DNA of 32,306 bases, taken from positions 1 to 32,306 of the forward strand of contig CAMAUZ010000086.1 of the NCBI GenBank assembly GCA_945861535.1, written 5' to 3'. Made by a program: the position numbers and the translations under genes. The DNA comes from Akkermansia muciniphila (GTDB lineage Bacteria > Verrucomicrobiota > Verrucomicrobiia > Limisphaerales > BJHT01). The notes under the pieces were generated by a model. The model searched no databases, was not told where the DNA came from, and saw only the letters and a list, made by a program, of their open reading frames with translations. Positions 1,492 through 19,607 of this stretch are shown here, one piece after another (position 1 is the first letter of the stretch; each line of letters starts with the position of its first letter).

Positions 1492-1604
1492 TTGGGTTGC
1501 GCCACCGCCTCACCGGCCCGGTGAAAATAGAAAAGTGAATTCGCCATTCCAGTCCCTGTCCACCGGTGATTGAACCGCCGCTCTCCGGCCCAACGCGACC
1601 CAAC

Positions 1605-3689
1605 ATGAAACAACGCCGCGCCCTCGCCCCGCTCGCCGCCGCCCTCGCCGCCGCGCTGCTGTTTGTTTCGCTGCCGGACCTGCGCAGCGCCGAGCCATCC
1701 ACCGCCGCGCCCCGCCTGCCCGACCCGCGCTCGCCGGACGCGCGCACGGTCGCCATGCCCGTGGACAAGGCGAAAACGTGGTGGGCGTTTCAACCCGTGC
1801 GGAAGCCCGCCGTGCCGGGCGTCGGTCCACGCCATCCGATTGATGCGTTCATCGCGGAAAAGCTCGCGGCGGCGGGCCTCGAGTCCGCGCCCGCGGCGGA
1901 CCGGCGTTTGCTCCTGCGCCGCGCGACCTTCGATCTCACGGGGCTGCCGCCCACGCCCGCGGAGGTCGCCGCCTTTCTCGCCGACGCTGCACCCGGAGCC
2001 TTCGCGCGCGTCGTGGACCGGCTGCTCGCGTCCCCGGCTTATGGCCAGCGCTGGGCGCGGCACTGGCTTGATGTCGCGCGCTATGCGGATTACCACGACG
2101 CCGATCCCAAGGCCCGCACGGCGAGTTGCGAGCCATTGGAAGCGTGTCGCTATCGCGACTGGGTGGTCGATTCCTTCAATGCCGACCTGCCGTTCGACCG
2201 CTTCATCGTGCATCAGCTCGCCGGGGATTTGCTCCCGAATCCGGCGGGCGGCGCGCTCTATCCGGCCGGCTTGATCGCCACCACGTTCCTCGCCAACGGC
2301 GCGTGGGACCGGGGCGACGCCGACAAGGAGAAGATGCTCAGCGACATGGTGGACGATCAGATCGACACGGTGGGCAAGGCGTTTCTCGGCCTCACCCTCG
2401 GCTGCGCCCGCTGTCACGATCACAAGTTCGATCCCATCTCGAACGACGATTACTACGCGCTGGCCGGGGTCTTCTACAGCACGCATTTCATGGAAACCCT
2501 CGGCACCAAGGGCGGCGAGATCACCTTCAAACGCGTGCCGCTCGTGCCGAAGGAAATTGCCGCGCTGCGAGACGGACAGGGCGCGCAACTCGACGCGCTC
2601 AAGGCGAAACTGACGGCGCTCGACAAACAGAAGCCGAAGCCCGCCGACAACGATCCCGTCCGCCTCGCGCTGGTGCAGGAACGCGACGCGCTCCAAGCCC
2701 GGTTGCCGCCGCCGTATCCGGTGGCGATGACCGTGCAGGAGGGCGGCATGAAGGGCGGGCTGTTCCCGAAAATTCAGGACGTGCCGGTCCATGTCCGCGG
2801 CAGTTACACGCGGCTGGGGCCGGTGATTCCGCGGCGCATGCCCGCATTCTTCGCCGGTGAAACCCAGCCGCCGATCACCCTCGGCAGCGGACGGCGCGAG
2901 CTGGCCGCCTGGATCACCGCGCCGACGAATCCGCTCACCGCGCGGGTGATCGTCAATCGCGTCTGGCAATGGCACTTCGGCGCGGGCCTCGTGCGCACGC
3001 CGAACAACTTCGGCTTGCTCGCGGAGACGCCGACGCATCCGGCGCTGCTCGACTGGCTGGCGGCCCGGTTCGTCGAGGACGGCTGGTCGCTGAAGTCGCT
3101 CCACCGCCAGATCATGCTCTCCGCCGCCTATCAGCGCGCCAGCGCGGTGCCCCGCGCGCAGGCCGCGCGCGATCCTGACAACCGCTGGCTCGGCCGCTTC
3201 ACCGCGCGCCGGCTCGAGGCCGAGGCCATTCGCGACGCGATGATCTTTGTGTCCGGCCGGCTCGACCTGGCCCCCGCCGGTCCCGCCGGCGCGGACGTCG
3301 GCGCGCTCCGACGATCGCTCTACATCCAGACTGCGCGCTGGGACCGCGGCAACTTCGCGACGCTCTTCGATGCCGCCAACCCCGACGCCTCCGTGGAAAA
3401 ACGAACCCTCTCGACCGTGGCCCCGCAGGCGCTCCTGCTGCTCAATCACGACTTCGTGCAAACCCAGGCCGCCGCCCTGGCGAAACGCCTCCTGCGCGAG
3501 GCCCCGGCCGACGAGGCGGCGCGCATCCACTGGGCCTGCCAGTTGTTGTTTGCCCGTCCGGCGCGCGCAGAAGAACTCGCCATCGGCCACCAGTTGCTCG
3601 CGCAATCCGGCGAACCGCACGCCGAAGCCGCGTGGTGCGACCTCGCGCATGTGCTGCTGTGCGCGAATGAATTTGTTTATGTGGATTGA
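1605..3689 (+). CDS. DUF1549 (PSCyt2) and DUF1553 (PSD1) secreted protein
   Basis: A 694-residue protein. ATG 1605 is chosen because it begins a Sec signal peptide (MKQRRALAPLAAALAAALLF..); a GTG 13 codons upstream would bury it. DUF1549 covers about residues 50-260 (FDLTGLPPTPAEVAAF, RHWLDVARYADYH) and ends in a CxxCH site, CARCHDHKFDPI, at Cys267/Cys270/His271. A short charged coiled-coil-like stretch at about 320-365 leads to DUF1553 (about 420-680; NPLTARVIVNRVWQWHFG, NNFGLLAETPTHPALLDWL). Unlike the paralog at 26274-28604 it lacks an N-terminal cytochrome-type PSCyt1 domain. The DUF1501 gene overlaps its 3' end, the usual partner arrangement in PVC bacteria. Role is not established; an extracytoplasmic haem-binding redox or catabolic function is inferred. 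Confidence 0.9.
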   Translation: MKQRRALAPLAAALAAALLFVSLPDLRSAEPSTAAPRLPDPRSPDARTVAMPVDKAKTWWAFQPVRKPAVPGVGPRHPIDAFIAEKLAAAGLESAPAADRRLLLRRATFDLTGLPPTPAEVAAFLADAAPGAFARVVDRLLASPAYGQRWARHWLDVARYADYHDADPKARTASCEPLEACRYRDWVVDSFNADLPFDRFIVHQLAGDLLPNPAGGALYPAGLIATTFLANGAWDRGDADKEKMLSDMVDDQIDTVGKAFLGLTLGCARCHDHKFDPISNDDYYALAGVFYSTHFMETLGTKGGEITFKRVPLVPKEIAALRDGQGAQLDALKAKLTALDKQKPKPADNDPVRLALVQERDALQARLPPPYPVAMTVQEGGMKGGLFPKIQDVPVHVRGSYTRLGPVIPRRMPAFFAGETQPPITLGSGRRELAAWITAPTNPLTARVIVNRVWQWHFGAGLVRTPNNFGLLAETPTHPALLDWLAARFVEDGWSLKSLHRQIMLSAAYQRASAVPRAQAARDPDNRWLGRFTARRLEAEAIRDAMIFVSGRLDLAPAGPAGADVGALRRSLYIQTARWDRGNFATLFDAANPDASVEKRTLSTVAPQALLLLNHDFVQTQAAALAKRLLREAPADEAARIHWACQLLFARPARAEELAIGHQLLAQSGEPHAEAAWCDLAHVLLCANEFVYVD

Positions 3690-5854: not shown

Positions 5855-6018
5855 GGAGCGCGGCCCTCATGCCGCAGGAACTTACTCCCCTCCGCAGTGT
5901 GCTTCCTGCCTGCCACGCCCTCATTGATCCACACGGTTTGTTTTCCCAAGTCGGACCTTGTCGCAGTCTGTCAGGCCCCGGTCGGGCCCACGTTTCTGCG
6001 GCATGAATGCCGCGCTCC
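5855..6018. repeat. Inverted repeat pair (GGAGCGCGGC..ATGCCGCAG type)
   Basis: The arm at 5855-5880 (GGAGCGCGGCCCTCATGCCG..) and the arm at 5993-6018, read in reverse complement, match at 23 of 26 positions. Each arm is itself partly palindromic (GCGGCAT/ATGCCGC). The right arm lies inside the 3' end of the response-regulator frame and encodes its tail residues around WSAAFMPQK. This looks like a REP-like mobile repeat that has grown into a gene end. Confidence 0.7.
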
Positions 6019-6691
6019 AACTGCATCGTCCCGGCTCGCAGCAGGCCGTCCCCCCCGCCACTTTGGCGACGGCTCCGCCGAGGGTGTTGACGTGGAGCTT
6101 GCCGTAGATGCGGCGGAGGTAGTTGTCCACGGTGTGCAGGCTGAGGGCGAGCTGGTCGGCGATTTCTTTTTTCGTCAGGCCGTCGGCGAGGAGGCGCAGC
6201 AAGTCGCGCTCGCGGGTGGAAAGTTCGATGGCGCTTTGCGCTGGTTTCATCCGGCTGAAACGGTCGAGCACGATGCGGGCGATTTCGGGCGTCATGGGCG
6301 CGCCGCCGCATTTCACTTCGCGCACGGCGGCGACGATCCGTTCGAGCGATTCGGATTTCAGGAGGTAGCCGGAGGCTCCGGCGCAGATGGCTTCGAAGAC
6401 GCGTTCGCGATCGTCGAAGACGGTGAAGATGAGAATCTCGGTTTGTGGAGAGGCCTTTTTGAAGAGGCGCAGCCCCTCCAGGCCGGACATCCCGGGCAGG
6501 CCGAGGTCGAGGATGATGACTTCCGGATGCGCGGTGGCTTTCGTCAATGCGGTCAGGGCGGCTTCGCAGGTGGAGAAGTCCCGCACGCTGGCTCCGTCGG
6601 AGAGTTCGAGCGCCTCACGCAGGGTCTGGCGCAGGGGCCGATGGTCTTCGACGAGCCAGATGTTCGTGCCGGTGGTGGTGGGCGTTTTCAT
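5921..6691 (-). CDS. NarL/FixJ-type response regulator
   Basis: A 256-residue DNA-binding response regulator. The receiver domain (about 10-125) has the acidic pair Glu15/Asp16, the phospho-acceptor Asp62 in ILDLGLPG, Thr90 and Lys112. A LuxR-type helix-turn-helix follows at about 157-213 (LSTRERDLLRLLADGLTKKE, SLHTVDNYLRRIYGKL). ATG 6691 is chosen because it precedes the receiver fold directly; a frame 28 codons longer exists. It overlaps the 3' end of the kinase gene by 77 bases, so it is very likely co-transcribed with it. The last ~42 residues are not part of the family: they run through an intergenic inverted repeat (5993-6018) before reaching a stop. The normal end would be near residue 214. 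It probably controls the divergent operon starting at 8793. Confidence 0.92.
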   Translation of the reverse strand: MKTPTTTGTNIWLVEDHRPLRQTLREALELSDGASVRDFSTCEAALTALTKATAHPEVIILDLGLPGMSGLEGLRLFKKASPQTEILIFTVFDDRERVFEAICAGASGYLLKSESLERIVAAVREVKCGGAPMTPEIARIVLDRFSRMKPAQSAIELSTRERDLLRLLADGLTKKEIADQLALSLHTVDNYLRRIYGKLHVNTLGGAVAKVAGGTACCEPGRCSWSAAFMPQKRGPDRGLTDCDKVRLGKTNRVDQ

Positions 6692-7853
6692 GGAACGGCC
6701 ATTGTCTGATGAGTGGAGCGGCGAGCCGGAAAACGGTTCCCTTTCCCACGGTGCTTTGGATTTCGCAGGTGGCATTCATGGCGGCAGCCCTTGCTTGCAG
6801 GTTGTCCAACCCGCTGCCGCTGCGATTCTGAGTTTCCGTCATGTCGAAGCCCTGGCCGTCGTCCTCGATCGTGATGACCAGCGGGCCGCTCCAGTCGAAG
6901 CGCACACGCACCTCGGTGGCGCGGGCGTGCTTGCGGGCGTTGGTGAGGGCTTCCTTGAGGAAGGCGAGGATGTCGCGCGTGTATTCGATGGCGGGGCGTC
7001 CTTCGGGCGGCTGGCCTTGATGCGTGATTTGATGTTCGACGCCTTCGAGCAGCCGCCGCGCGATGGCTTCCATGCGGTGGGAAAGTTCCTGCCAGTCTCC
7101 GTCCTTGGGCGCGAGCAGCCAGATGATGTCGCGCATCTGGTCGAGCGTTTCGCGGGCGGAGGCGGAGATTTTTTCCAGCCGATCGGGAGAGAGTTCCGCG
7201 CGCTGGAGTTGCTGGCGCGCGAGGTCGCCCTGCATGGCGAGGTGGCTGAGGCTGGCACCGATTTCGTCGTGCAAATCGCGGGCGATGCGCGTGCGCAACG
7301 TGTCCTGCTGCAGCCGTGACTTCGTGCGCTGGATGAGCAGGACGGCGGCGGCGATCAAGGTGATGGCGATGGCGGCGGCGATGGCGATGGCGAGTTTGCG
7401 CCGGGCCGAAGTTTCCGCGAGACGCTGGAGTTGGGCGCGGATGAGTCGTGCTTCGGCTTGAAGGGCTTCGCTTTTGGCGAGGCCATCGAGCCACTCGGTC
7501 CAGCTCAGCAAGTCGTGCCGGCTGGAATAGCCATCGGTCAGGGCGGCGGGCGACCAGCCGGCTTCGGTCGTGGTGTCGGATGCGCTCACGGCACAGCCGG
7601 CGGCGATATTTTTCCCCTCGCGCCAGCACTGGAGTTCGCTCATGGCCAGCAGGTTCTCTTCGCTGTCTTCACGGAGCACGGTGCCTCGCCGCCCAAGCGC
7701 CTCGCAGGAAATGCGGATGCGGCGGGCCACGAGGCCGGGCGTGGCGAACATGACCTGCGCCGCCCCGGGATTGGGCAGCGCGGCAGCCGGATAGGCAGGA
7801 TTGTTCTCGTTCCGGATGACCTTTTCGCGGTCCGTGCCGGGGTCGGCCAGCAC
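6615..7853 (-). CDS. Sensor histidine kinase, C-terminal part after an in-frame stop
   Basis: From the first in-frame start after the stop (GTG at 7853) this gives 412 residues. Residues 1-110 are the rest of a discoidin-like sensor domain (ALTDGYSSRHD). A single membrane helix lies at about 153-175. A HisKA_3 dimerisation domain has the phospho-acceptor His195 in ARDLHDEIGAS. An HATPase_c domain has Asn305 in the N-box, DDGQGFD (331-337) and GSGLDNL (346-352). The frame is the same as that of 7875-8693, and only TAA 7875-7877 separates them. If read through, the product would be a ~691-residue kinase with an N-terminal signal peptide. Alone, this part keeps a catalytic core but has only half of its sensor and no signal sequence. 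It overlaps the regulator gene. Confidence 0.85.
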   Translation of the reverse strand: MLADPGTDREKVIRNENNPAYPAAALPNPGAAQVMFATPGLVARRIRISCEALGRRGTVLREDSEENLLAMSELQCWREGKNIAAGCAVSASDTTTEAGWSPAALTDGYSSRHDLLSWTEWLDGLAKSEALQAEARLIRAQLQRLAETSARRKLAIAIAAAIAITLIAAAVLLIQRTKSRLQQDTLRTRIARDLHDEIGASLSHLAMQGDLARQQLQRAELSPDRLEKISASARETLDQMRDIIWLLAPKDGDWQELSHRMEAIARRLLEGVEHQITHQGQPPEGRPAIEYTRDILAFLKEALTNARKHARATEVRVRFDWSGPLVITIEDDGQGFDMTETQNRSGSGLDNLQARAAAMNATCEIQSTVGKGTVFRLAAPLIRQWPFHENAHHHRHEHLARRRPSAPAPDPA

Positions 7854-7874: not shown

Positions 7875-8693
7875 TTAGCCCGGCAGATCGGCGTAGCCCC
7901 GGGGGTGCGCCGGCACGAGGTGGACTTCATCAATGGCCACGGCCGCCCCCAGATCAACCTCGACCCAGGTCTTGCCGCCGACGAAGGGTTGTTTGCTCGC
8001 GGCGCTCTGGTGGCCGTTCATGGGCGAGGTCTCGCGGCCCCGCAGCGGCAGGCACCAGAAGTAGCCATCGGTCAGATTCCGGGTGGTCCACGCCCGCGCG
8101 ATGTCAACTCCGGCGGTGCAGGTGACCGGCCGGGTCAGCGCCACGTTCCGCCCCTTTTCCAGCACGACGATTTCGCCGAGGCGGAAATACGGCTGATCCG
8201 GCTGGCTGGGGTCGTCGCGAAAACCGGTGACGCGCACGCGCAGAAAACGCCCGGACGCCCGGTTGCCCTCGAAGCTCAGGAAGGACACGTGCTCCCCGGC
8301 CCCTGGCTCCGGCTCCTGCCAGCCGGCGATGCGGATGCTGGTGACAAAGTCATCCGCTTCGGCAATCTCGACCTGCAACGACGCCGGAAATCCTGCGGAA
8401 GGCACGTCACCCGGCACCGGCAGTCTGGCCGGAAAAACCACGATCCGCTCCGGCCTGACGGGCCTTCCGAAGTCGATCATCACCCACGCGGGATTCGCCT
8501 TGATCCCGTGGATGCCCAGCCGCTGCTGGGTCTGCGCGGAGTGGATGAGTTTCGGAAGTGATTCCAGTTCCTGCTGGATACCCGTCAGCCGTTCATTCAG
8601 CGACGCGACATCCTCCGCTGCGGCCGTGGTCATCGCGCACAGCCAGATGACCACGAGGCCGAGGAAGAGAAGCTGGATTCCGGTGCGATTCAC
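7875..8693 (-). CDS. Discoidin-like sensor domain, N-terminal part of the interrupted histidine kinase
   Basis: A 272-residue frame from GTG 8693 to TAA 7875-7877. It starts with a signal peptide or membrane anchor (GIQLLFLGLVVIWLCAM, cleavage near AAAE). Two discoidin/F5-8C-like regions follow: about 50-170 (WVMIDFGRPVRPERIVVFPA) and a second starting near 185 (ALTRPVTCTAG, NLTDGYFW, WVEVDLGAAVAIDEVHLVPA). The second is cut off after HPRGYADLPG. The next in-frame codons after the stop (GFPTHFRVLAD) continue the discoidin fold directly, so this is the front of the kinase at 6615-7853 rather than a separate gene. TAA is one base from a Tyr codon. It is a candidate pseudogene, sequencing error or readthrough site. 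Confidence 0.75.
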   Translation of the reverse strand: MNRTGIQLLFLGLVVIWLCAMTTAAAEDVASLNERLTGIQQELESLPKLIHSAQTQQRLGIHGIKANPAWVMIDFGRPVRPERIVVFPARLPVPGDVPSAGFPASLQVEIAEADDFVTSIRIAGWQEPEPGAGEHVSFLSFEGNRASGRFLRVRVTGFRDDPSQPDQPYFRLGEIVVLEKGRNVALTRPVTCTAGVDIARAWTTRNLTDGYFWCLPLRGRETSPMNGHQSAASKQPFVGGKTWVEVDLGAAVAIDEVHLVPAHPRGYADLPG

Positions 8694-8738
8694 CCGGTCA
8701 CGCTAGCAGGCGACGGGGTGAATTAAAGCCCCGGTCAC

Positions 8739-8756
8739 GTGACGTAAACACGTCAC
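8739..8756. promoter_or_regulatory. 18-base palindrome in the divergent promoter region, candidate operator
   Basis: GTGACGTAAACACGTCAC is a perfect 7-4-7 inverted repeat. It overlaps a second palindrome, GTCACGTGAC (8734-8743). It lies in the only ~100 bases between the sensor-kinase start (8693, minus) and the DUF1552 start (8793, plus), where both promoters must be. Such a site fits a dimeric regulator; the local NarL-type regulator is the obvious candidate, but this is inference. Confidence 0.5.
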
Positions 8757-8792
8757 ATGACAAATAGCTGCCCTTCGGACACCTTTTCCCGC

Positions 8793-10181
8793 ATGCACTT
8801 GAACCGACTCCCTCGCCGCTCGTTTCTCAGATCGCTTTCGCTCGGTGCCAGTGCGCCTCTGCTCTCCCCGCTCATTTCCCGCCTCGAGGCGGAGAACCGC
8901 GGCGTGAAGCCGATGCGCGTCGTGTTCATGCTCGAGGGCAATGGACTTGATCCCAGGCAAATTCAGCCGGTGGGCATCAAACGCCAGGAGATGCCCAATA
9001 TGCGCAACCCGGCCGGCCAGGTGAAGCAGAGCGCGGAGGATGCGCTGGTGGATTTGAAGCTCTCCGCGCCGGGGCACAGTCTCTCCGAGGCGATCGCGCC
9101 GCTGTCGCGCCACATGAAGCGCTTGACAGTCCTGCAGGGCCTCTCGGGTCGCGTGTGCGGGGGCGGACATGGGAATGGCTTCGGCACGCTGGGCGCTTAC
9201 GCGGGCGCCGCCGGTCCGAAGGACATCACCATCGATGCGGCCCTGGCTCGCGCGAACCCCGGCATTTTCCGCCAGGTCGCGCTCGGGATCAACGCGAGCG
9301 GCAAGGAGCAGATCATCTATGCGTGCTCGGCAGCGGGTCCCAATCAGAAGATCCCGCACTATCAGGATCCGGCGCTCGCTTACCGGATGCTGTTTGGCCG
9401 GATCCTGGGCGGCAACACCAAGGCCGAGGTGGGCACGCAAACGATGCTGCTCGATTTCATGGCGGAGGACGTTCACCGCCTCGAACGGCAGTTGCCGGGC
9501 GAAGAGGCGCAAAAGCTTCAGCGCTTCGCCGATTCGTTCTCGGCCATTGGCAAGCGCCAGTCCCGGCTGAACGAGGTGGATCCGAAAAAAATCCCGCCGC
9601 AGCGCGATGAACTTTATCTCTCGGAAGTCGAGACGAAACGCCTGGAGGCGCAGTTCGATCTCGCGGCCACGGCGCTCATCGCCGGGTTGACGAACACCGT
9701 CACGCTCGCCTGCGATTCCCAGAACTACGTTACGTTCAAGGGACTGGGCATCACCGTGGACAAGCACACCATCGGCCATCGCCAGGTGGAAGGCGCGATC
9801 GAGATGGAGGTCAAGATCCGCCGTTTCTACACGGAACTGCTGGCCAAACTGGTCGATAAACTCGAGGCGATTCCCGAGGGCAACGGCTCGATGATGGATA
9901 ACACGCTGATTGTCTATCTCAGCGACAGCGCCGAGCAGCATCACTCGACCTGCTACGAATGGCCGATGCTGTTGCTCGGCAATCTGGGCGGGCGGCTCAA
10001 GACGGGCGACCGTTATCTCTGCGTGCCGAAATACGGCGAGAAAGGTCACGCGACCGTGGCGCGGTTTTACACGACGCTGCTGCACGCGGTCGGTGCGCCG
10101 GTGGACCAGTTCGGCACCAAGGATCAGAACATGGGCGCTGCCGTCGAGCAGCGGGGACCCCTGGCGGAGTTGCTGGCATGA
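8793..10181 (+). CDS. DUF1552 Tat-type secreted protein
   Basis: A 462-residue DUF1552 protein. ATG 8793 is chosen because it places a twin-arginine signal at the start (LPRRSFLRSLSLGASAPLLSPL); ATG 8757 would add 12 residues and begins right against the palindrome. Family features include MRVVFMLEGNGLDP near residue 45, LSRHMKRLTVLQGLSGRVCGG, GHGNGFGTLGAY, and a C-terminal MMDNTLIVYLSDSAEQHH region. DUF1552 proteins usually sit next to DUF1592-type cytochromes. Here that partner (11734) comes one gene later, with the caspase-like/FGE gene between. The stop overlaps the next start by four bases (ATGA). It is the first gene of the operon facing the two-component system. Enzymatic role is unknown. 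Confidence 0.92.
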   Translation: MHLNRLPRRSFLRSLSLGASAPLLSPLISRLEAENRGVKPMRVVFMLEGNGLDPRQIQPVGIKRQEMPNMRNPAGQVKQSAEDALVDLKLSAPGHSLSEAIAPLSRHMKRLTVLQGLSGRVCGGGHGNGFGTLGAYAGAAGPKDITIDAALARANPGIFRQVALGINASGKEQIIYACSAAGPNQKIPHYQDPALAYRMLFGRILGGNTKAEVGTQTMLLDFMAEDVHRLERQLPGEEAQKLQRFADSFSAIGKRQSRLNEVDPKKIPPQRDELYLSEVETKRLEAQFDLAATALIAGLTNTVTLACDSQNYVTFKGLGITVDKHTIGHRQVEGAIEMEVKIRRFYTELLAKLVDKLEAIPEGNGSMMDNTLIVYLSDSAEQHHSTCYEWPMLLLGNLGGRLKTGDRYLCVPKYGEKGHATVARFYTTLLHAVGAPVDQFGTKDQNMGAAVEQRGPLAELLA

Positions 10182-11737
10182 GGGGACTTCTGCCAGCGTG
10201 CTGGCTGCTGCTCGTCGTGACCGCGGTTGCCCGGGCCGAGCATCGTCATGCGCTCGTCATCGGCAACAGCCAGTATCCGAAGGCGGAGCTCGCGTCGCCG
10301 CCCCGCGACATTCGTGCGGTGGGTGAAGCGCTGAAGAAGCGCGGCTTCGTGGTGACGCAGCACGAAAACGTCACGGACAAGGAACTCAAGCCGGCATTCG
10401 AGGCCTTCGCGCGAACGGTCCCGATTCGCGGGACGGCGCTCGTGTATTTCTCCGGATACGCGGCGCCCGCAGGCAAGCCCGACGCGCCCAATGCGGACAA
10501 TGTCTTGAGGCCCATCGACGGCACCGGTTCTGCCAACGGCATCCTGCCGCTGATGAATCTGCTGGCTGCCAACGGCGGAAGCGCGCTCAACGTGATGATC
10601 GTGGACGGCTGCTACGCCTATCCCTCGGGCGGGGCAGCCAAAGCTCTTGGATTGAACAAGCCAGCCAAGCTGCCAAACGAAAGCCTGATCGTTTTCGCTG
10701 CGCCCTTTGGTGAGGTGATCGAGCCCGTGAAGGACGGGTTGTCCCCGCTGGCGCGTCGGTTCACCGCGGCCTTGGACTCGACCCAGCCGCTGAACGACAT
10801 CCTCGCCCATCTCAGCCCGACGCAGTTATCCACGACCGACGGTCTCGCGAAACTGGCCGCGCCGGCTTCCCGCGCGATCGCTCCGGCCAACACGTGCCTG
10901 CCGGGTTCGAAGGCGGGCGAGGAATGGACGAGCGCCATCGGGACGGTCTTTTGCTGGTGCCCGCCGGGGAGCTTTGTCATGGGAAGTCCGCCGACGGAAC
11001 CGAATCGCCAGGAGGATGAAAGCCAGGTTCCGGTCACGATTTCGCGAGGCTTCTGGATGAGCAAATACGAGTTCACGCGCACGGAAAACAAGGCGCTGAC
11101 GAAGAATCCGGGAGTCTATTTGTCCACTGGAGATCACAAGCTTCATCCGCTGAATCATCTTCATCCCAACACACCGGACATCATATTAGCCAAGCTCAAT
11201 GAGATCGCTCCCAACGGCTGGCAATACACGCTCGCGACCGAAGCCGAGTGGGAATACGCCTGCCGCGCCGGCACGAGGACCGCCTACTCGTTCGGCAGCG
11301 ATGCGGCCGATTTGGCGAAGCACGGCAATTTTTCCGACCGCTCGCTGCGCGAGGGCAGCGCAGTCAGCGAGATCGGCAAGAGCTACACCCAGAAACCTTT
11401 TCGGGGCGACAAGCAGCAGGGCCTTTTCACCTATGCCCACAAGACGTGGAACGATGGATTCGTGACCATGGCGCGCGTCGGCAGTTATCCTCCGAACGCC
11501 TGGGGCCTGCACGACATGCACGGCAACATGGCGGAACTTACTTCCACACCTTATGACGCGGAACGCGCCGTGCTCGCCGCACCCGCCAAGGATGGCGGAC
11601 TCGGCTGGGTCATCAAGGGCGGCGGCTGGTTGAGCACCGCGGATTACTGCCGCTCCGCTTTTCGCGGACAATCCGCTCATACCAAGGAGAACTACATGAG
11701 CCTGCGGCTTGTGCTCCGGCAGAAAGTGAAACCATGA
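10178..11737 (+). CDS. Caspase-like (C14) domain fused to FGE/SUMF domain, secreted
   Basis: A 519-residue protein with a Sec signal (MRGLLPACWLLLVVTAVARA). Residues 22-195 form a caspase/metacaspase p20-like domain: RHALVIGNSQYP, DIRAVGEALKKRGF, ALVYFSGYAAP, and VMIVDGCYAYP. Family members normally have S-G-H-G with a catalytic His; here that position is Tyr94 (SGYA), while Cys145 is kept in DGCY. Protease activity is therefore doubtful. Residues ~250-515 are an FGE-sulfatase/SUMF-type fold (CPPGSFVMGS, TEAEWEYACRAGTRTAYSFG, WGLHDMHGNMAEL, KGGGWLSTADYCRSAFRG). Most proteins with this fold are not true formylglycine generators. It overlaps both neighbours by four bases and so is made together with the DUF1552 and DUF1592-type proteins. 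A scaffold or pseudo-protease role is inference. Confidence 0.9.
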   Translation: MRGLLPACWLLLVVTAVARAEHRHALVIGNSQYPKAELASPPRDIRAVGEALKKRGFVVTQHENVTDKELKPAFEAFARTVPIRGTALVYFSGYAAPAGKPDAPNADNVLRPIDGTGSANGILPLMNLLAANGGSALNVMIVDGCYAYPSGGAAKALGLNKPAKLPNESLIVFAAPFGEVIEPVKDGLSPLARRFTAALDSTQPLNDILAHLSPTQLSTTDGLAKLAAPASRAIAPANTCLPGSKAGEEWTSAIGTVFCWCPPGSFVMGSPPTEPNRQEDESQVPVTISRGFWMSKYEFTRTENKALTKNPGVYLSTGDHKLHPLNHLHPNTPDIILAKLNEIAPNGWQYTLATEAEWEYACRAGTRTAYSFGSDAADLAKHGNFSDRSLREGSAVSEIGKSYTQKPFRGDKQQGLFTYAHKTWNDGFVTMARVGSYPPNAWGLHDMHGNMAELTSTPYDAERAVLAAPAKDGGLGWVIKGGGWLSTADYCRSAFRGQSAHTKENYMSLRLVLRQKVKP

Positions 11738-13677
11738 AACTTACCTCGAAGATTCTGCTATTCGCGGCGGCCATGTGCTGGATCGGACCGGCCTCTGCCG
11801 CTGACGATGTGGCGGTGTTCCTGGATCGCTATTGCGTCAGTTGTCACGACAACGACACGAAGAAGGGCGACCTCACGATTGAAAACATCAAGAGCTTCAA
11901 GGACGCAAAGCCCGAGGTGTGGGCGTCCATCCGCGAGAAGTTGCAGCTCCGGGAAATGCCGCCCAAGCGGAAGACCCAGCCCACGACTGATGAGCGCGAG
12001 AAAATCGCCGCATTCATCGCCGATTCGCTGCGAGCCGCCGGGCACTTCGTCAACAACAAGCTCGAACTGCCGAACTACGGCAATCGCATCCCTCACGCCG
12101 ACCTGTTTGGTGCCAAGCCTCATCCCGCGCCCGCGACACCGGTGCGGCTGTGGCGTCAGCGCCCCACCATTTACGCCCAGGGGAAACCCGGTGCGATCCA
12201 GGCCTTCGCGATGGCCCCCGGTCAGCAGATCTCCGACTTCAGCGCGCTCTACACCGTGGATGAAGGCGCCGCCGAGATCGTGCTGAACAATGCGCAGCAG
12301 CTCGTCGAACGCTTCACCCAAGTGGAACTCGACAACGGCGAATTGCGCAACAAACCCGGCACGCCGCCTCAACTGCTTCCGATTCTTCATCCGGAACGCG
12401 AGCCTGCACTGGGGGCGTTTGATAAAGCCGTCGCGTGGGCCTTCGGCACGGCCCTGTCGCGCATGCCCACCGAGGAGGAACTGACCCGCGCGCGCGAACT
12501 CTACGACAAGGTGAAATCCGGACACGGCCGCCTCCAAGCTGGACGCGCGGTTCTGACGATCCCCTTCCTCAAGCCGGAGGCGGTTTACCGCCTCGAACTC
12601 GGGGCCGGACCGCTCGACTCCCACGGTCGCCGGCGTCTCTCGAAAGGCGAGATCCTCGTGGCGCTCCATCAGACCTTTTTCGACGGAGCGGCGCCGCAAA
12701 CCATCGCCGATGCCCGCGCCAAAGACGCACTCGCCACCCGCGAGGAAGTCGCGGCATTGGTGAAGAAACTTCTCGATACTCCGAAGCCGAATGCGCGCCT
12801 GCTGAACTTCTTCGACGAATACTTCGACTACCGCAAAGCCACCGGCGTTTTCAAGGAGACGCCGGCGGACGTTCACTTCAATGCCCACCAGCTTGTCCAC
12901 GACACGCAGCGTTTGATCGAACTCATTGTCACCGAGGACAAGGACGTGCTGCGACGCCTGTTGACCACGGACCGGACCTATATCGCCAGCCAGGTGGTCA
13001 ACGGAGTGCCGAGCCGCAACCATCGCATCTACAACCTCCCCGATGATTTGAAATGGCGCCCGGGGTTGATCCCACTCGCGGCGGAAGAGCGGGCCGGCAT
13101 CCTCACACATCCGGCGTGGCTCGTCGCGCACTCGGGCAATTTCGACACCGATCCCGTCCGCCGCGGCAAATGGATTCTCGAGCATCTGCTCGGCGGCACC
13201 GTGCCCGACCTGCCGGTCACCGTCTGCGCCTTCGTGCCGCCCGATGAAACCAAGACCTTGCGCGAGCGCTTCGAAGTCATCCGCAACAAGGCGTATTGCT
13301 GGAATTGCCACCAGCAGATGAATCCCATCGGCATGAGCTTCGAGGCCTACGATCACTTTGGCCGCTATCGCCTCAAGGAACTGGACCGGCCCGTGGACAT
13401 GACCGGAGCCGTCGTGGACATCGGCGATCCTTCCGTGGACGGCCCGGTGTCGAGCCCGGTGGAGTTGATCCATCGCCTCGCCAAATCCAAGCGCGCGCAG
13501 GAAGTTTTCGTGCGCTACGCCTTCCGCTTCTTCCTCGGCCGCAACGAAACCGTCCGCGACGCCAAGACGCTCCAGGAAGCAAGCCAGGCCTACACCGCCA
13601 GCGGCGGCAGCATGAAGGCCCTCGTCGTATCGCTGCTCAGCTCCGATTCGTTCCTGTATCGCAGCGTCGAGCCGTGA
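11734..13677 (+). CDS. DUF1592/DUF1588/DUF1585 c-type cytochrome-like protein
   Basis: A 647-residue protein whose start overlaps the preceding stop (ATGA). It has a Sec signal (MKLTSKILLFAAAMCWIGPASA). A PSCyt1-type domain carries a haem site CVSCHDND (Cys34/Cys37/His38) and the typical LREMPPK segment. The usual DUF1587 motif region is degenerate (NYGNRIPHADLFG). DUF1592 spans about 220-435. DUF1588 (about 447-555) contains RAGILTHPAWLVAHS, VRRGKWILEHLL and a second CxxCH, CWNCHQQMNPIG (Cys522/Cys525/His526). DUF1585 ends the protein (KRAQEVFVRYAFRFFLGR). It is shorter than the 869-residue relative at 23100-25709. It probably acts outside the cytoplasm as a haem protein working with the DUF1552 protein. 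Confidence 0.9.
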   Translation: MKLTSKILLFAAAMCWIGPASAADDVAVFLDRYCVSCHDNDTKKGDLTIENIKSFKDAKPEVWASIREKLQLREMPPKRKTQPTTDEREKIAAFIADSLRAAGHFVNNKLELPNYGNRIPHADLFGAKPHPAPATPVRLWRQRPTIYAQGKPGAIQAFAMAPGQQISDFSALYTVDEGAAEIVLNNAQQLVERFTQVELDNGELRNKPGTPPQLLPILHPEREPALGAFDKAVAWAFGTALSRMPTEEELTRARELYDKVKSGHGRLQAGRAVLTIPFLKPEAVYRLELGAGPLDSHGRRRLSKGEILVALHQTFFDGAAPQTIADARAKDALATREEVAALVKKLLDTPKPNARLLNFFDEYFDYRKATGVFKETPADVHFNAHQLVHDTQRLIELIVTEDKDVLRRLLTTDRTYIASQVVNGVPSRNHRIYNLPDDLKWRPGLIPLAAEERAGILTHPAWLVAHSGNFDTDPVRRGKWILEHLLGGTVPDLPVTVCAFVPPDETKTLRERFEVIRNKAYCWNCHQQMNPIGMSFEAYDHFGRYRLKELDRPVDMTGAVVDIGDPSVDGPVSSPVELIHRLAKSKRAQEVFVRYAFRFFLGRNETVRDAKTLQEASQAYTASGGSMKALVVSLLSSDSFLYRSVEP

Positions 13678-13733
13678 CTTGCTGGTTCTCGCTCGAAGCC
13701 ACCGGGAATTCAATCTCAGCCAATCGCTCCAAC

Positions 13734-14726
13734 ATGAAAAACTACATCCTCTTGCTCCTTCTCATCAGTCAGCCCTTCTGCATCGCCGCACAGCCTGCGC
13801 CGCTGCAGATTCCCGAAGTGCTGAAGTCCGTCAAGGCAGCGGTTGCCCGCAACGAACTCAGTCTCACCTCAACCACACCGCTCACCGAAGAGCAGTGGAC
13901 GGCAGTGGAGGGGCTCGTCGCAGCGGGCAAGATCCGTTCGTTCGTCTTCAGCGGCAAAGCCGGAGACGACATGGCGCTGGCCCGCCTTGTCAAACTTGAA
14001 CCGGAGTCCATCAAGTTCTTCGGCGGCATTTTCACCGAGGCAGGCGCCGCCCGCTTCGCGGAGATGAAGTCGCTAAAACACCTGATCACATCGCACGCGG
14101 GCCCGCCCACCGCCAAAGCCGCCACCGCGCTCGCCCACCATCCCGCGCTGGAGTCCTTCGCTTCGGACGGCTTCGGCACCGACGGCATCGATCAGATCAC
14201 CTCCGCGAAAAACCTGCGTCAGCTCTCGCTGCAGCATGGACTGGCCTGCGACGCCAACGTCGCCCTCTTGTCGCAGCACCCGGCAATCGAGAAGCTCTGG
14301 CTCTGGCCGCACGGCCCCTATGCCATTCTGACCGACGCCGCGATTCCCTCCCTCGCCACCCTGCCCAAGCTGAAGGATCTGACGCTCGACTATTCGCGGT
14401 TCACCTACGACGGCGGGCTCAAGCACCTCAAGCAGATCCGGACGCTTGAGAAGCTCTCGCTGGGCAACGCGATCGTGTCCGAAGCCGATCTGGAACGCCT
14501 GAAAGCCGAGTTGCCCAACGTGGCGATCAAATACACCCCGATGCCCGAGGACAAACGCGCTGCCTTCGAGCGGGCGGAAGTGATTCGGGACCGCCTCGCC
14601 GAACTCGTAAAGCTGCCCGACGCAGACCGCACCGCGAAGCTGGCGGAACTCAAAAAGACTGATCCGGCTCTCTTCGGCGCGGTTAGCACCGCATTGCAGC
14701 GACTGCAGCCGAACTCCAAAAAATGA
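13734..14726 (+). CDS. Secreted leucine-rich-repeat-like protein
   Basis: A 330-residue protein starting at ATG 13734 with a Sec signal (MKNYILLLLLISQPFCIAAQ). The middle (about 95-265) contains irregular leucine-rich repeats: MKSLKHLITSHAG, HPALESFASDG, AKNLRQLSLQHG, HPAIEKLWLWPHG, LPKLKDLTLDYSR and IRTLEKLSLGNA. The last ~60 residues are helical and charged (RAAFERAEVIRDRLAELVKL). The gap to the upstream gene is 56 bases; the downstream frame starts on its stop codon (ATGA at 14723). A damaged second copy of its C-terminus lies at 19287-19517. LRR proteins of this kind are common in PVC operons next to dehydrogenase/cytochrome genes, probably as binding partners; exact function is unknown. 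Confidence 0.8.
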   Translation: MKNYILLLLLISQPFCIAAQPAPLQIPEVLKSVKAAVARNELSLTSTTPLTEEQWTAVEGLVAAGKIRSFVFSGKAGDDMALARLVKLEPESIKFFGGIFTEAGAARFAEMKSLKHLITSHAGPPTAKAATALAHHPALESFASDGFGTDGIDQITSAKNLRQLSLQHGLACDANVALLSQHPAIEKLWLWPHGPYAILTDAAIPSLATLPKLKDLTLDYSRFTYDGGLKHLKQIRTLEKLSLGNAIVSEADLERLKAELPNVAIKYTPMPEDKRAAFERAEVIRDRLAELVKLPDADRTAKLAELKKTDPALFGAVSTALQRLQPNSKK

Positions 14727-14752
14727 ACCGCCTTGGGTTGGAACGCACCCTT

Positions 14753-17700
14753 ATGAACACGAGAAAACTAAGCCTCATCCTCACTCTGCTGCTCACGAGT
14801 ATCCAATGCTTCGCCGCGCCCGTGCCGCTCTTCGACGGCAAGACTTTCACCGGCTGGGAGGGCGATACGGCGAAAACTTGGCGCATCGAGAATGGCGAGA
14901 TCATCGCCGGCAAGCCGGACGCAAAGCAGCCGCGCAACGAGTTCCTCTGCACCACGCGCGATTACGCCGACTTTGAACTGCGTCTCGAATACCGGCGCGG
15001 TGAGAACAATGGCGGCATCCAGTTCCGTAGTGAGCGCGTGCCGAATCACCACGAAGTCAGCGGTTATCAGGCGGACTTCGCGCCGGGCATTGATGGCTGC
15101 CTTTACGACGAATCGCGGCGGAACCGCTTTCTCGCCGTGTTCGGCGTCGCGGATGTGGATCTGTCGAGCGAAGCGGGACGTCCGGGCGCTTTGATCAAGC
15201 GGGCGCTCGATTCGCAGGCGGGGAACGCCAAGAAGCTCGGCATCGCCGAGTGGAACCGCTACCGCATCCGCGCCGAGGGGCCGCGCGTCCGGCTTTGGAT
15301 CAATGATGTGCTCACGGTGGATTACACCGAGAAGGATCCGAAGATTCCGCTCACGGGAAAAATCGCGATCCAGATCCACGGCGGCGCGACGGAGATTCGC
15401 TACCGGAACATCACCATCGAGGAGCTGAACGCGAAGCCTGCGCCCAAAGGAGCATTCCAGCTCAAGGCCAGCGACGTGATCGCGCTGACCGGCGGCTCGA
15501 ACATCGAGCGCACGCGGTTCAACGGCTATTTGCAGACGCACCTCGTCGCCGCGAAGCCGGATGCTAAAATCAGAGTGCGCAACTTTGGCTGGGAGGGCGA
15601 CACCGTGTTTGAACAGTGGCGCGATGCGGGTGTGGTGAAGCCCACGGACAGTTGGCGGCAGCAGCGTGAATGGCGGACGCAGCTCCGCGACGCCGGCGCG
15701 AGCGTGGTTATTGCACAGTTTGGGCAAATGGAGTCGCTCAATGGCATCGGGATGCTGCCGCGGTTCATTGCCGGGTATGAGAAATTGATCGCGGAATTTT
15801 CCGAGGAAGGACGGCGGGTGGTGCTGGTCGCTCCGATTTCCTTTGAAGGCACTCTCGCTCCGAACAACGCAAGCCTCGCCGCCTACACGAAGGGCATCCG
15901 CGATCTCGCTGCGAAGCTTCAGCTCGAGTTCATCGAAATCGAAAAGCCAGGAGCGAATCACGACGCGCTGACGGATAACGGCTATCAGCTCAGCGATGCG
16001 GGCCATCGCCTTGTCGCGCGCCGCATCGTCGAGGGGCTCGGCATTTCGCCCGTCGAGAACGAGGCCGTGCGCCGCGAGGTGATCGAGATGGAGCGGCTGT
16101 GGTTCGACTACTGGCGGCCGATGAACTGGGCGTTCCTCAGCGGCGACCGCACGATGCAGCCGTATTCGAAAGACTGGCGCGACGGCAACAAGCGCATCTT
16201 CCCGCAGGAGATGGACGATTTCCTTCCGCTGCTGAAGCAGGCCGACGAAAACATCTGGAGCGCGCTCAAGAAAAGGCCGGTGACGCCCATCGGCATCCGC
16301 TCCTCGATTCCCGTCGAGCCGCCGGGCGTGAAGCCGCTGTCGCCCGAGGACGAGAAGGCTCAGTTCAGAATCCTCGAGGGTTTTGAAGTGAACCTTTTCG
16401 CATCCGAGGCGGACGGCATCGTGAAGCCGATCCAGATGCGCTGGGATGAACGCGGGCGGCTGTGGGTCGCGTGCGCGGTGAGTTATCCGCAGATCAAGCC
16501 CGGCGAAAAGGCGAACGACTACGTGCTCGTGTGCGAGGACACAAACGGCGACGGACGCGCGGACAAGTTCACGAAATTCGTCGAGGGCCTCTTCATGCCC
16601 ACGGGCATCGAGCTGGGCGACGGCGGTCTCTACGTCGGCCAGGGCACGGAGCTGCTGCACTTCAAGGACACCGACGGCGATGGCAGGGCGGACACGAAGC
16701 GCATCGTGCTCGGCGGATTCGGCACGTCGGACTCGCACCAGATGATCAACGGGCTGAACTGGGGCTTCGGCGGCGAGTTGTGGTTCACGCAGGGCTTCCA
16801 CATTTACTCGCGGGTCGAGACGCCGTTTGGCGTGGAGACGCTGAACCGCTCGGGCGTGTGGCGCTGGCGGCCGCGCACGAGGCATCTCGATCCATTTTTT
16901 CAATTCGCCTCGGCCGGCGTGAACAACTGGGGCGTGATCACGACGGAGTTCGGCCAGCCCTTTCACAAGAGCGGCGCGAACATTGGCGCATGGTTCAGCA
17001 CGCCCGGACTCGTGCGCTCGAGCCTCGCGGTGGATGCGCAGGCGATGAACCTTTTCATCGGGCAGAGCAAGCAGGTCGGCATGGAGTTCCTGCACAGCAC
17101 ACAGTTCCCGCCGGAGATGCAGGGCCGCGCCATCATTGGCGGCTACTACATCAACGTGCTCGAGCAGCATGATCTCAAGTTCGACAAGGGCATGTTCAGC
17201 TCGACGCGACTGCCGAACATCATCGAGGCGAAAAGCAACGTCTTCCGCCCCGTCGAGGTGCGCATGGGGCCGGACGGCGCGATCTACGTCGCGGACTGGT
17301 ATAACCCGATCATCGGCCACTACCAGGCGAGCTACCGGCATCCCGATCGCGACAAGGAGCACGGCCGCATCTGGCGCGTGACGTGGAAGGGCGGCCGCAA
17401 AGTCACGCCCGCAAAACTCGCAGGCGCGAGCGTGGCGGACCTGCTGGAGCAGCTCGATTCCAAGGAACGCTGGGCGTGGTATCAGTCGAAGCGGTTGCTT
17501 TTTGAAAAGGACACGAAGGAAGTGTTCGCCGCGCTCGACGCGTGGCTGCCGAAACAGCAGCGCAACGAATACCGCCGCCTGCTGGCGCTTTCGCTCTATG
17601 AGGCGCACGAGACACCGCGGCCTGCGCTGCTTGCCGAACTGCTGCGCTCGCCCGACGCCCGTATCCGCGCCTATGCCACGCGGGTCATCGGCACCTGGGC

Positions 17701-19126
17701 GCGTGACGGGAGGCTGCCGGACGCATTGCCACTGCTCGAAACCCAAATCGCGGACGAGGACGCGCTCGTGCGTGTCGAGGCCATTGTCGCCGCCAGTTAT
17801 GTCAGCGACCCGCGCGCCGCCATCGTGGCCGCCCGCGCCCTAGACAAGGAATTCAACGCCTACCACCTGCACGCGCTCACGAAGACGCTGCACGTGCTGA
17901 ATCCGCTCTGGTCGCCATTGCTCGTCGCGGGAACGCTGGCCTTCGAAAAGGACGAGCACCTAATCTTCGCCCTGCAAAACGGCTGGGTGGAAAACAATGT
18001 GGATGACTTCCGCGGCCTGACTGGGGGCAGCGTCGCCTACCGGCCCAACGCCAGCACCAAGGCCATCGAAATCATGCGCAAGCAGATCGCCGGGAACTCG
18101 GGCAACGCGGCGAGACAGCAGCGCTGGATCACCGCGTTCGCTGGCATTGCCTCGGCAGATGACTTGCCCCTGGTGTTCGAACTCGGGGGCCAAAACGCCG
18201 CCGTGCTCGCCGCGCTCAAATCAGCGCGTCCCGCAGACGCCGAGAAGCTGCTCACACCTTTGTTCGACTCGGATCGCGCGGAGTTGAAAATGCAGGCCGT
18301 TCGTCTCGCCGGTCTGTGGAAGGTCGAATCGTTCGCCGCCCGCATCCGCCCCCTCGCCTTGAAGCAAAGCCTGCCGCAGGCGCTTGATGCACTGATCAGC
18401 CTGAGCCCCGACGAAGTCGCGCGGCACGCCCTGGCCCGTATCGTGAGCCGCGAAAAACCGGAAGATGCCACGCCCCTGCTCAACGCGCTGGTATCCCGCA
18501 GAGAGGGCCGCGCAGCACTGGAGCGTGCGTTGCAAAAGCCGGATGCGCTCCCGGCCGGCGGGGCAAAGGTTGCGCTGCGGGCACTGAACCTCCTCGGCAA
18601 AAGCGACCCGAAACTCTCGGCCCAATTCATGAAACTCGCCGGCATCGACGCCGCGCTCCCCGCCTACACCAAGGAAACCATCGCCGATCTCGTGAACGCT
18701 GCGAGGACCATCGGCAACGCCGCCGAGGGAAAGAAAGTTTACGAGCAGGCCGGCTGCATCGCGTGCCACACGCCGGGACCGCAGCAGAGCAAGATCGGCC
18801 CCGATCTAAGCAACCTCGCACGCGGACTGCCCGTGGACATGATCGTCACCGAAACCATCTGGCCCGCGCTAAATGTGAAGGAGGGCTACGAGGCCGCCAC
18901 CGTCACGCTGAAGGACGGCACGGTCATCACCGGCTTCAAACAGACCGAGACCGCCGATGCCATCGCCATCCGGGACGTGACATCCGGCGCCGTGACAACG
19001 CTCCCGCGCACCGCGACGCAAAGCATCAAGACTGGTGGCAGCGTCATGCCCGACGGTCTGACCGCTGCGCTCAGCACCCAGCAACTGGCACATCTCCTCC
19101 GCTACCTCTTGGAACTCGGGAAGTAG
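14753..19126 (+). CDS. DUF1080 + SGNH + PVC-type dehydrogenase + HEAT + cytochrome c fusion
   Basis: A 1457-residue secreted multidomain protein. ATG 14753 starts the signal peptide (MNTRKLSLILTLLLTSIQCF); ATG 14723, overlapping the previous stop, would add 10 residues. Domain order: DUF1080/3-keto-disaccharide hydrolase-like lectin fold (about 24-225; LFDGKTFTGWEGD, NNGGIQFRS, WNRYRIRAEG); an SGNH hydrolase-like domain (about 235-425) with Ser249 in TGGS and Asp415/His418 in DAGH; a PVC-type membrane-bound dehydrogenase beta-propeller (about 535-895; two calcium-loop-like DTNGDGRADK/DTDGDGRADT motifs, GPDGAIYVADWYNPII); HEAT-like repeats (about 900-1290); and a cytochrome c domain with CIACH at Cys1335/Cys1338/His1339. 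It plausibly binds and oxidises or deacylates a sugar and passes electrons to its haem. The substrate is unknown. Confidence 0.9.
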   Translation: MNTRKLSLILTLLLTSIQCFAAPVPLFDGKTFTGWEGDTAKTWRIENGEIIAGKPDAKQPRNEFLCTTRDYADFELRLEYRRGENNGGIQFRSERVPNHHEVSGYQADFAPGIDGCLYDESRRNRFLAVFGVADVDLSSEAGRPGALIKRALDSQAGNAKKLGIAEWNRYRIRAEGPRVRLWINDVLTVDYTEKDPKIPLTGKIAIQIHGGATEIRYRNITIEELNAKPAPKGAFQLKASDVIALTGGSNIERTRFNGYLQTHLVAAKPDAKIRVRNFGWEGDTVFEQWRDAGVVKPTDSWRQQREWRTQLRDAGASVVIAQFGQMESLNGIGMLPRFIAGYEKLIAEFSEEGRRVVLVAPISFEGTLAPNNASLAAYTKGIRDLAAKLQLEFIEIEKPGANHDALTDNGYQLSDAGHRLVARRIVEGLGISPVENEAVRREVIEMERLWFDYWRPMNWAFLSGDRTMQPYSKDWRDGNKRIFPQEMDDFLPLLKQADENIWSALKKRPVTPIGIRSSIPVEPPGVKPLSPEDEKAQFRILEGFEVNLFASEADGIVKPIQMRWDERGRLWVACAVSYPQIKPGEKANDYVLVCEDTNGDGRADKFTKFVEGLFMPTGIELGDGGLYVGQGTELLHFKDTDGDGRADTKRIVLGGFGTSDSHQMINGLNWGFGGELWFTQGFHIYSRVETPFGVETLNRSGVWRWRPRTRHLDPFFQFASAGVNNWGVITTEFGQPFHKSGANIGAWFSTPGLVRSSLAVDAQAMNLFIGQSKQVGMEFLHSTQFPPEMQGRAIIGGYYINVLEQHDLKFDKGMFSSTRLPNIIEAKSNVFRPVEVRMGPDGAIYVADWYNPIIGHYQASYRHPDRDKEHGRIWRVTWKGGRKVTPAKLAGASVADLLEQLDSKERWAWYQSKRLLFEKDTKEVFAALDAWLPKQQRNEYRRLLALSLYEAHETPRPALLAELLRSPDARIRAYATRVIGTWARDGRLPDALPLLETQIADEDALVRVEAIVAASYVSDPRAAIVAARALDKEFNAYHLHALTKTLHVLNPLWSPLLVAGTLAFEKDEHLIFALQNGWVENNVDDFRGLTGGSVAYRPNASTKAIEIMRKQIAGNSGNAARQQRWITAFAGIASADDLPLVFELGGQNAAVLAALKSARPADAEKLLTPLFDSDRAELKMQAVRLAGLWKVESFAARIRPLALKQSLPQALDALISLSPDEVARHALARIVSREKPEDATPLLNALVSRREGRAALERALQKPDALPAGGAKVALRALNLLGKSDPKLSAQFMKLAGIDAALPAYTKETIADLVNAARTIGNAAEGKKVYEQAGCIACHTPGPQQSKIGPDLSNLARGLPVDMIVTETIWPALNVKEGYEAATVTLKDGTVITGFKQTETADAIAIRDVTSGAVTTLPRTATQSIKTGGSVMPDGLTAALSTQQLAHLLRYLLELGK

Positions 19127-19517: not shown

Positions 19518-19607
19518 ACAGCGAAGAATCCGGTTTGCGACGTCGGTTCGATGATCGATAAGCAGGAGCCCCGCGAGAAGAGCCCGGGAATAGAACAACT
19601 CAAAATG

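Follow-up and report, generated by a model that had tools for sequence, protein, structure and literature searches.

Bacterial caspase homologs with a substituted catalytic dyad and fusions of caspase-like with FGE-sulfatase domains are both known kinds of proteins. In a survey of bacterial orthocaspases, 858 of 9,994 were reported to lack one or both of the dyad residues, with the Alphaproteobacteria and Cyanobacteria accounting for 90% of these cases (PMC6426788); neither Planctomycetes nor Verrucomicrobia came up when its main text was searched by term. Among metacaspases, 84% were reported as intact (64% in Planctomycetes), Tyr as the commonest substitute of the catalytic His, and 33 of 671 sequences as fusions with an FGE-sulfatase domain (PMC3501461); the Verrucomicrobia have been termed metacaspase-deprived (PMC4933709). 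For the PSCyt proteins, nothing is reported as known about their function, and a link to carbohydrates has been suggested (PMC5615132). Here, we describe a gene encoding a pseudo-orthocaspase fused to an FGE-fold domain (10178–11737, forward strand), found between a DUF1552 gene and a PSCyt gene in a stretch of 32,306 nucleotides from Akkermansia muciniphila (assembly GCA_945861535.1, contig CAMAUZ010000086.1), hereafter the window. In the literature searched, outside of which lie most subscription journals, an operon-bound family in which both domains appear dead was not found described, nor was any link of a caspase with DUF1552, DUF1592, DUF1588 or PSCyt, the sole co-mention of 'caspase' concerning an oomycete.

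The bacterial pseudo-orthocaspases of the YS and YN types (Klemencic et al. 2019, PMC6426788) resemble the family of the window in their p20 fold, substituted dyad and often kept acidic pocket, and the YS type also shares an export signal with it. Compared with these types, the family is mixed in its substitutions, fused to an FGE-type domain and linked to PSCyt and DUF1552 genes. The metacaspase–FGE-sulfatase fusions have the same domain order, and one Trichodesmium fusion is also reported without the dyad (PMC3501461); the word 'cytochrome' occurs 0 times in that text, so no such linkage of the fusions is reported there. On the other hand, the comparison fusions L005, L025 and L037, and several others in the class, have intact dyads, unlike the family of the window. 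As for the neighbouring genes, the PSCyt3-type genes of PVC bacteria usually adjoin a gene of an unknown family (PSCyt3/PSD pairs, PMC5615132), as the pair in the window does, to which a third, pseudocaspase–FGE gene is added here, in an order varying among three subtypes. The juxtaposition of a PSCyt/DUF1592-1588-1585 gene and a DUF1552 gene places the locus among the PSCyt3/PSD–DUF1552 modules.

The fusion gene starts with ATG at 10178, ends with a stop at 11735–11737 and encodes 519 amino acids; we consider it real because two Pfam domains score over their cut-offs, ATGA overlaps join it to both neighbours and relatives occur in other genomes. A putative Sec signal peptide (residues 1–20; 10178–10237, +), recognized by eye and modelled with a low predicted local distance difference test score (pLDDT), precedes a caspase p20 fold (residues 21–236; 10238–10885, +) and an FGE/SUMF, C-type-lectin-like fold (residues 241–515; 10898–11722, +). 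Peptidase_C14 (PF00656) was matched at residues 23–146 with 45.9 bits (cut-off 21.4, E 7e-12), and FGE-sulfatase (PF03781) most strongly at residues 352–512 with 88.3 bits (cut-off 23.3). In the AlphaFold2 model of the whole protein, built from a 38-row alignment (mean pLDDT 77.4, predicted template modelling score 0.61), residues 21–236 matched the MALT1 paracaspase (Z 21.9, root-mean-square deviation 2.6, 190 aligned), as did the caspase part modelled alone (Z 22.1), so that the p20 fold is, as predicted by these models, kept despite the missing dyad. As to a p10 domain, which pseudo-orthocaspases lack, the PF00656 match covers only positions 2–128 of the 233 of the profile, but the model aligns with MALT1 341–565. 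Residues 241–515 matched PvdO (Z 28.8, deviation 2.3, 233 aligned), TvpA (Z 27.1), PorK (Z 24.7) and human FGE (Z 22.6–22.7). The domain scores and fold matches thus bear out the original prediction, made from the DNA alone, of a caspase-like domain fused to an FGE/SUMF-type domain. Its description of the protein as secreted agrees with an N-terminus that is export-like by eye, but 'extracellular' is not supported, the signals suggesting export, probably to the periplasm.

Alignment with caspases placed Tyr94 (codon TAC, 10457–10459, +) at the position of the catalytic His, where the canonical comparison sequences L005 and L025 read GHG, and Cys145 (codon TGC, 10610–10612, +), within a DGC motif, at the position of the catalytic Cys, as had been predicted. 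In both models, Tyr94 lies just after strand 86–92 and Cys145 just after strand 137–143, which are the caspase His and Cys places by alignment. The only other histidines of residues 1–240 are His22, His24, His62 and His211, and none of them adjoins, in sequence, the ends of either strand of the predicted models, which, in sequence terms, argues against another His completing the dyad. Tyr94 is not a sequencing error, because operons of four more genomes (G492, G909, G155 and G156, the last in its copy G156a) encode a Tyr there as well. The protein therefore has the p20 fold of Peptidase C14 without its His-Cys dyad, and agrees with the definition of a pseudo-orthocaspase as a p20 domain with one or both dyad residues substituted.

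The family was searched for in two orders with a profile of the N-terminal half of the fusion protein, and also in genome samples of the class and phylum. Of 320 genomes from the window's own order, 9 gave a match to the profile (G191, cut by its contig end, among them), as did 2 of 213 from the order to which G492 belongs. At family score level, the class-wide sample yielded 5 of 384 genomes, four of them from the window's own order, and the phylum-wide sample 1 of 387, namely the window's own; the single genome of the same genus (G001) gave no match. Twelve full members could be read: those of the window, G492, G909, G155 and G156 (two, a and b), forming subtype A; G048 and one of two in G196 (G196a), forming subtype B; and the other of G196 (G196b), G194, G185 and G183, forming subtype C. 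G191 leaves its contig before the dyad and was counted for its neighbours only. The original prediction had named the same fusion and gene order in other genomes as a check, and both recur.

None of the 12 members has an intact His-Cys dyad. The residues at the His and Cys places are Tyr and Cys in five members of subtype A (window, G492, G909, G155, G156a) and His and Ala in the sixth (G156b), His and Gly in G048, Gln and Pro in G196a, Arg and Leu in G196b, G194 and G185, and His and Leu in G183, the four members of subtype C having a Cys one place earlier. Tyr94 and Cys145 are thus conserved as such in only 5 of the 12, at odds with what a conserved Tyr/Cys pair would have required, and no ortholog with a normal dyad was found, the three that keep the His (G156b, G048, G183) having lost the Cys. 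Among 30 comparison caspase frames, both residues are clear in 29 and the remaining one runs out of frame; these frames were picked by similarity to the family, with seven duplicates, the row of the window itself and matches lacking a locus left out, so that the proportion is no survey of all caspases. As judged from these residues, a loss of classical caspase proteolysis in the fusion family is well supported, and the predicted non-proteolytic character is upheld by the dyad states and by the lack of a substitute His beside either strand end in sequence.

In a tree with 15 intact caspases, 11 members (without G909) form one side of a branch with support 98/98. Within the caspase-part tree, subtypes A and C are supported and B is not, its two rows being long branches. 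Because Tyr/Cys and His/Ala both occur inside subtype A, the ancestor of this subtype was probably intact, and together with the other subtypes this implies at least three separate losses of the dyad, if losses were not reversed. The inner branching of subtype A is weakly supported, the five Tyr/Cys members grouping in only 28% of the bootstrap trees. Several further matches were set aside: that in G268 (E 3.6e-4) was judged unrelated by eye and is missing from the family profile search; G508 and G587 match at the FGE junction only, and the opening 12 kb of the contig from G508 gave no match to the family profile; and the fragment in G511, interrupted by a TGA stop, was left out of the member count. 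The other three C14 proteins of the window's genome (L001–L003) fall under the comparison threshold, two of them having a DTC motif. Viral contigs contained no relative of the window's caspase part, and 54 plasmid records matched, none over 80% of the query and, among the five matches listed, over the FGE part only.

Two acidic residues of the p20 domain could be equated with those of a substrate pocket. Asp95, in the S1 pocket, and Asp211 of TbMC2 are described as accommodating basic substrates (PMC6426788, section 17), and we take their counterparts in the fusion protein to be Asp44 (10307–10309, +), aligned with an Asp found in all 30 comparison frames, and Asp143 (10604–10606, +), two residues before the Cys. 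Asp143 is invariant in the family (12/12), and Asp44 is kept in subtypes A and B (8/12; 7 of the 11 aligned, with G909 read by eye) and lost in C. A pocket without a cutter would fit a role in binding, at least in subtypes A and B.

A similar loss concerns the second domain. We take Cys336 and Cys341 to be the catalytic residues of FGE, and the PDB titles name mutants C336S and C341S. At the place of Cys336 the fusion protein has Ser486 (11633–11635, +), and Ser is found there in all 12 members, with Cys at the place of Cys341 in 7. The domain therefore has the fold of FGE, by PF03781 and the match to the human enzyme, without the pair Cys336 and Cys341, and formylglycine synthesis is unlikely because of the residues at these two places. 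That no member read works as a classical caspase or as an FGE is a strong claim, of negative kind, read from the residues present.

The fusion gene overlaps by 4 bases (ATGA) both the preceding DUF1552 gene (10178–10181, +) and the following PSCyt gene (11734–11737, +), confirming the coupling that had been predicted. The DUF1552 gene (PF07586; 8757–10181, +) encodes a protein with a twin-arginine-like N-terminus and HxxGH and xHH....EWP motifs, and the following gene (11734–13677, +) a diheme PSCyt1/DUF1592/DUF1588/DUF1585 protein by Pfam, with two CXXCH motifs. Both partner genes adjoin all 12 members and the contig-cut G191, as called by Pfam in the window and by home-made profiles in the other operons; the DUF1552 gene of G194 and the PSCyt gene of G185 are truncated by the end of their contigs. 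In subtypes A and C the pseudocaspase gene stands in the middle, after DUF1552 and before PSCyt, whereas in subtype B (G048, G196a) it comes last, after PSCyt and then DUF1552. The DUF1552 and pseudocaspase genes overlap by 4 bases in 7 of 12 members, namely G048 and the six of subtype A, and are 1–20 bases apart in the other five; the pseudocaspase–PSCyt junction, which 10 members have, is a 4-base overlap in six and a gap of 4–5 bases in four. Searched with the same profiles, seven loci of intact caspases (L235–L241, mostly FGE fusions) have neither partner gene within 2–7 kb on each side. The trees of DUF1552 and PSCyt (G909 left out) recover the same three operon sets, all starred, and the three genes of the operon have a shared history.

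Selection on the caspase part was estimated by the Nei-Gojobori method in five pairs. The ratio of nonsynonymous to synonymous changes (dN/dS) was 0.12 for G183/G185, 0.20 for window/G492, 0.24 for window/G155 and 0.37 for window/G156b, and in these four informative pairs of the five the caspase domain is maintained by purifying selection.

Considering these results, we propose that the fusion is a double pseudoenzyme that serves a periplasmic PSCyt–DUF1552 module as its binding or adaptor subunit, a proposal to which we give roughly even chances. It builds on the domains, the missing residues, the predicted fold, the operon, the shared history of its three genes and the purifying selection in the informative pairs, and a place as adaptor in a periplasmic cytochrome module appears to be the most economical reading of them. 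An exported orthocaspase-type p20 domain presumably unable to cut would be fused to an FGE/C-type-lectin-type fold presumably unable to make formylglycine, and both dead domains would form the adaptor subunit of a module whose other parts are a Tat-exported DUF1552 protein and the diheme PSCyt/DUF1592 protein. The p20 domain could accommodate a basic peptide stretch from a partner in its acidic pocket, where this is retained, and the FGE-fold domain could bind a second ligand, tethering a substrate or partner near the cytochrome; on this reading, the fusion would be exported, enter a complex, bind ligands and possibly have a role in electron transfer. The original prediction of a scaffold for an extracellular redox complex is reasonable from the operon once 'extracellular' is dropped, and a ligand-binding adaptor fits equally well. 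Human FLIP(L) (PMC7586951; PMC6426788, section 18) is a comparable case, described as a caspase without catalytic activity that is retained for its role as a partner, namely as the dimerisation partner of caspase-8 in human cells; the family of the window has no homologous pathway.

Several observations weigh against this proposal. Asp44 is lost in the four members of subtype C, and therefore pocket binding is not a function common to all. In the same four members, a Cys directly precedes each of two sites, the p20 Cys position and the FGE Cys336 position, so that shifted thiol chemistry there is compatible with the sequence. The DUF1552 tree does not separate the partner proteins, as a single clade, from three paralogs encoded in the window's genome (the label needs 3 changes), and therefore recruitment to DUF1552 genes may have occurred more than once; besides, these three paralogs (C26, C91, C54) adjoin a CXXCH-bearing gene without any caspase, and the basic pair thus works without a pseudocaspase gene. 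The fifth pair, G155/G156a, has a dN/dS of 1.26 in the caspase part, from 9 changes only, and the dS of the window pairs is 1.4–1.9 there, near saturation. The confidence of the model is modest, with a mean pLDDT of only 77 from the 38-row alignment.

Alternatively, the FGE-fold domain might be an active PvdO-like periplasmic oxidase passing electrons to the diheme cytochrome, with the p20 domain only docking, which we regard as unlikely. PvdO is the closest solved structure (sequence match E 1e-27), the cytochrome gene overlaps the fusion gene, and PvdO is described as periplasmic and required for an oxidation, and as having no detectable cofactor and being inactive as purified (PMC6206403). 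Against this, the fusion protein scores 78.2 bits with the NCBIfam equivalog of PvdO, for a cut-off of 500, so that an identity as PvdO was rejected, and TvpA, a C-type-lectin-fold variable protein, is nearly as good a structure match. Where the family has Ser in all members, PvdO has, as read from the alignment, a Glu at the FGE Cys336 place, which we take to be essential. Both PvdO and GldK/PorK share with the window protein the FGE fold and, as far as its N-terminus suggests, export, and differ in having no caspase domain, the window protein lying far under their NCBIfam cut-offs.

Mere decay, in which the dyad would have been lost through relaxed selection and the place in the operon be incidental, seems improbable. 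In favour of decay, the forms of dyad loss are diverse, the FGE part is the slower-evolving one in the three window pairs, presence is patchy within the order and lacking in the same-genus genome, and the G511 fragment contains a stop. On the other hand, the frames are full-length in all 12 members, dN/dS is well under 1 in four of five pairs, the predicted fold is kept, Asp143 is invariant, and the two partner genes are linked throughout.

That the protein acts as a sensor in regulated cell death or in defence is very unlikely, even though FGE-fold domains and caspase-type peptidases have been proposed as invasion sensors and effectors, respectively, of conflict systems (PMC10907252) and the knock-out of a cyanobacterial pseudo-orthocaspase was reported to give better peroxide tolerance (PMC7889975): the N-terminus of the fusion protein is export-like, and PADLOC run on four proteins returned a 20-bit caspase match for the fusion and nothing for its three neighbours. 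Least probable of all is that the protein is still a protease, using Cys145 with another base or a Tyr/Cys pair with a different hydrolytic chemistry. Cys145 and the acidic pocket are kept in the window and four relatives and subtype C has its Cys one place earlier, but 7 of 12 members have Ala, Gly, Pro or Leu at the Cys position and, in sequence, none of the four remaining histidines of the window's domain adjoins strand 3 or strand 4.

Returning to the proposed adaptor, we advance with more reserve, as a doubtful extension, that the family is a dedicated class of double pseudoenzymes recruited as a substrate- or partner-binding subunit by a periplasmic cytochrome/DUF1552 machine, which would have lost their dyad independently at least three times while keeping their fold, their place in the operon and, in two subtypes out of three, the acidic pocket. 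If so, the recruited class could not combine its new role with cutting, or would have no need to cut, and a binding subunit could for the first time be assigned to the unexplained PSCyt modules. Such a third subunit, present with a defined subset of the abundant DUF1552 genes, would offer a handle for pull-downs and substrate searches. One operon family also gives a natural series of dyad losses (Y/C, H/A, H/G, Q/P, R/L, H/L), and extends the pseudo-orthocaspases to a group outside the text of the 2019 survey.

The DUF1552 partner itself belongs to the xHH....EWP subgroup, in which the tree also places C26, C91 and C54. The window's genome has 36 DUF1552 matches, 34 of them over cut-off; the motifs HxLSHH, seen in 12 of the 30 loci looked at, and xHH....EW mark at least two classes among them. 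The DUF1552 alignment found no match among solved structures. Downstream of the PSCyt gene lie a possible leucine-rich-repeat-like secreted protein frame (13296–14726, +), with its true start further in and a Pfam match below cut-off, and, overlapping it by 4 bases, a gene for a DUF1080–GDSL-like–DUF7133–HEAT–cytochrome c protein of 1467 amino acids (14723–19126, +); downstream of the G492 operon, proteins start, by eye, like those of these two genes. A scan of 8400–14000 gave no promoter, and terminator-like sites were no more frequent than in shuffles. Divergent from the operon are frames for a LuxR-type response regulator, a histidine kinase and a preceding frame (5921–6775, 6615–7853 and 7875–8693, all on the reverse strand), the last two looking, by eye, like pieces of a single sensor gene that a frame change has divided; the frame next to the histidine kinase frame shows F5/8-type-C similarity below cut-off. 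These LuxR/histidine kinase genes are a possible regulator of the operon.

Further along the window, a protein of 666 amino acids with two FGE-fold stretches (19551–21551, +) is convergent to a second, ordinary DUF1552–PSCyt pair (21688–23085 and 23100–25709, both on the reverse strand), so that, together with the fusion gene, an FGE fold is found near a DUF1552–cytochrome pair twice in the window. Two PSCyt2/DUF1553 proteins and a DUF1501 gene of planctomycete type are encoded at 1566–3689, 26034–28604 and 28624–29901 (+). Among the intact-caspase loci, L238 (G462:C18:131000-150000) contains five caspase matches within about 11 kb, all with His and Cys and at least two with an FGE-like motif.

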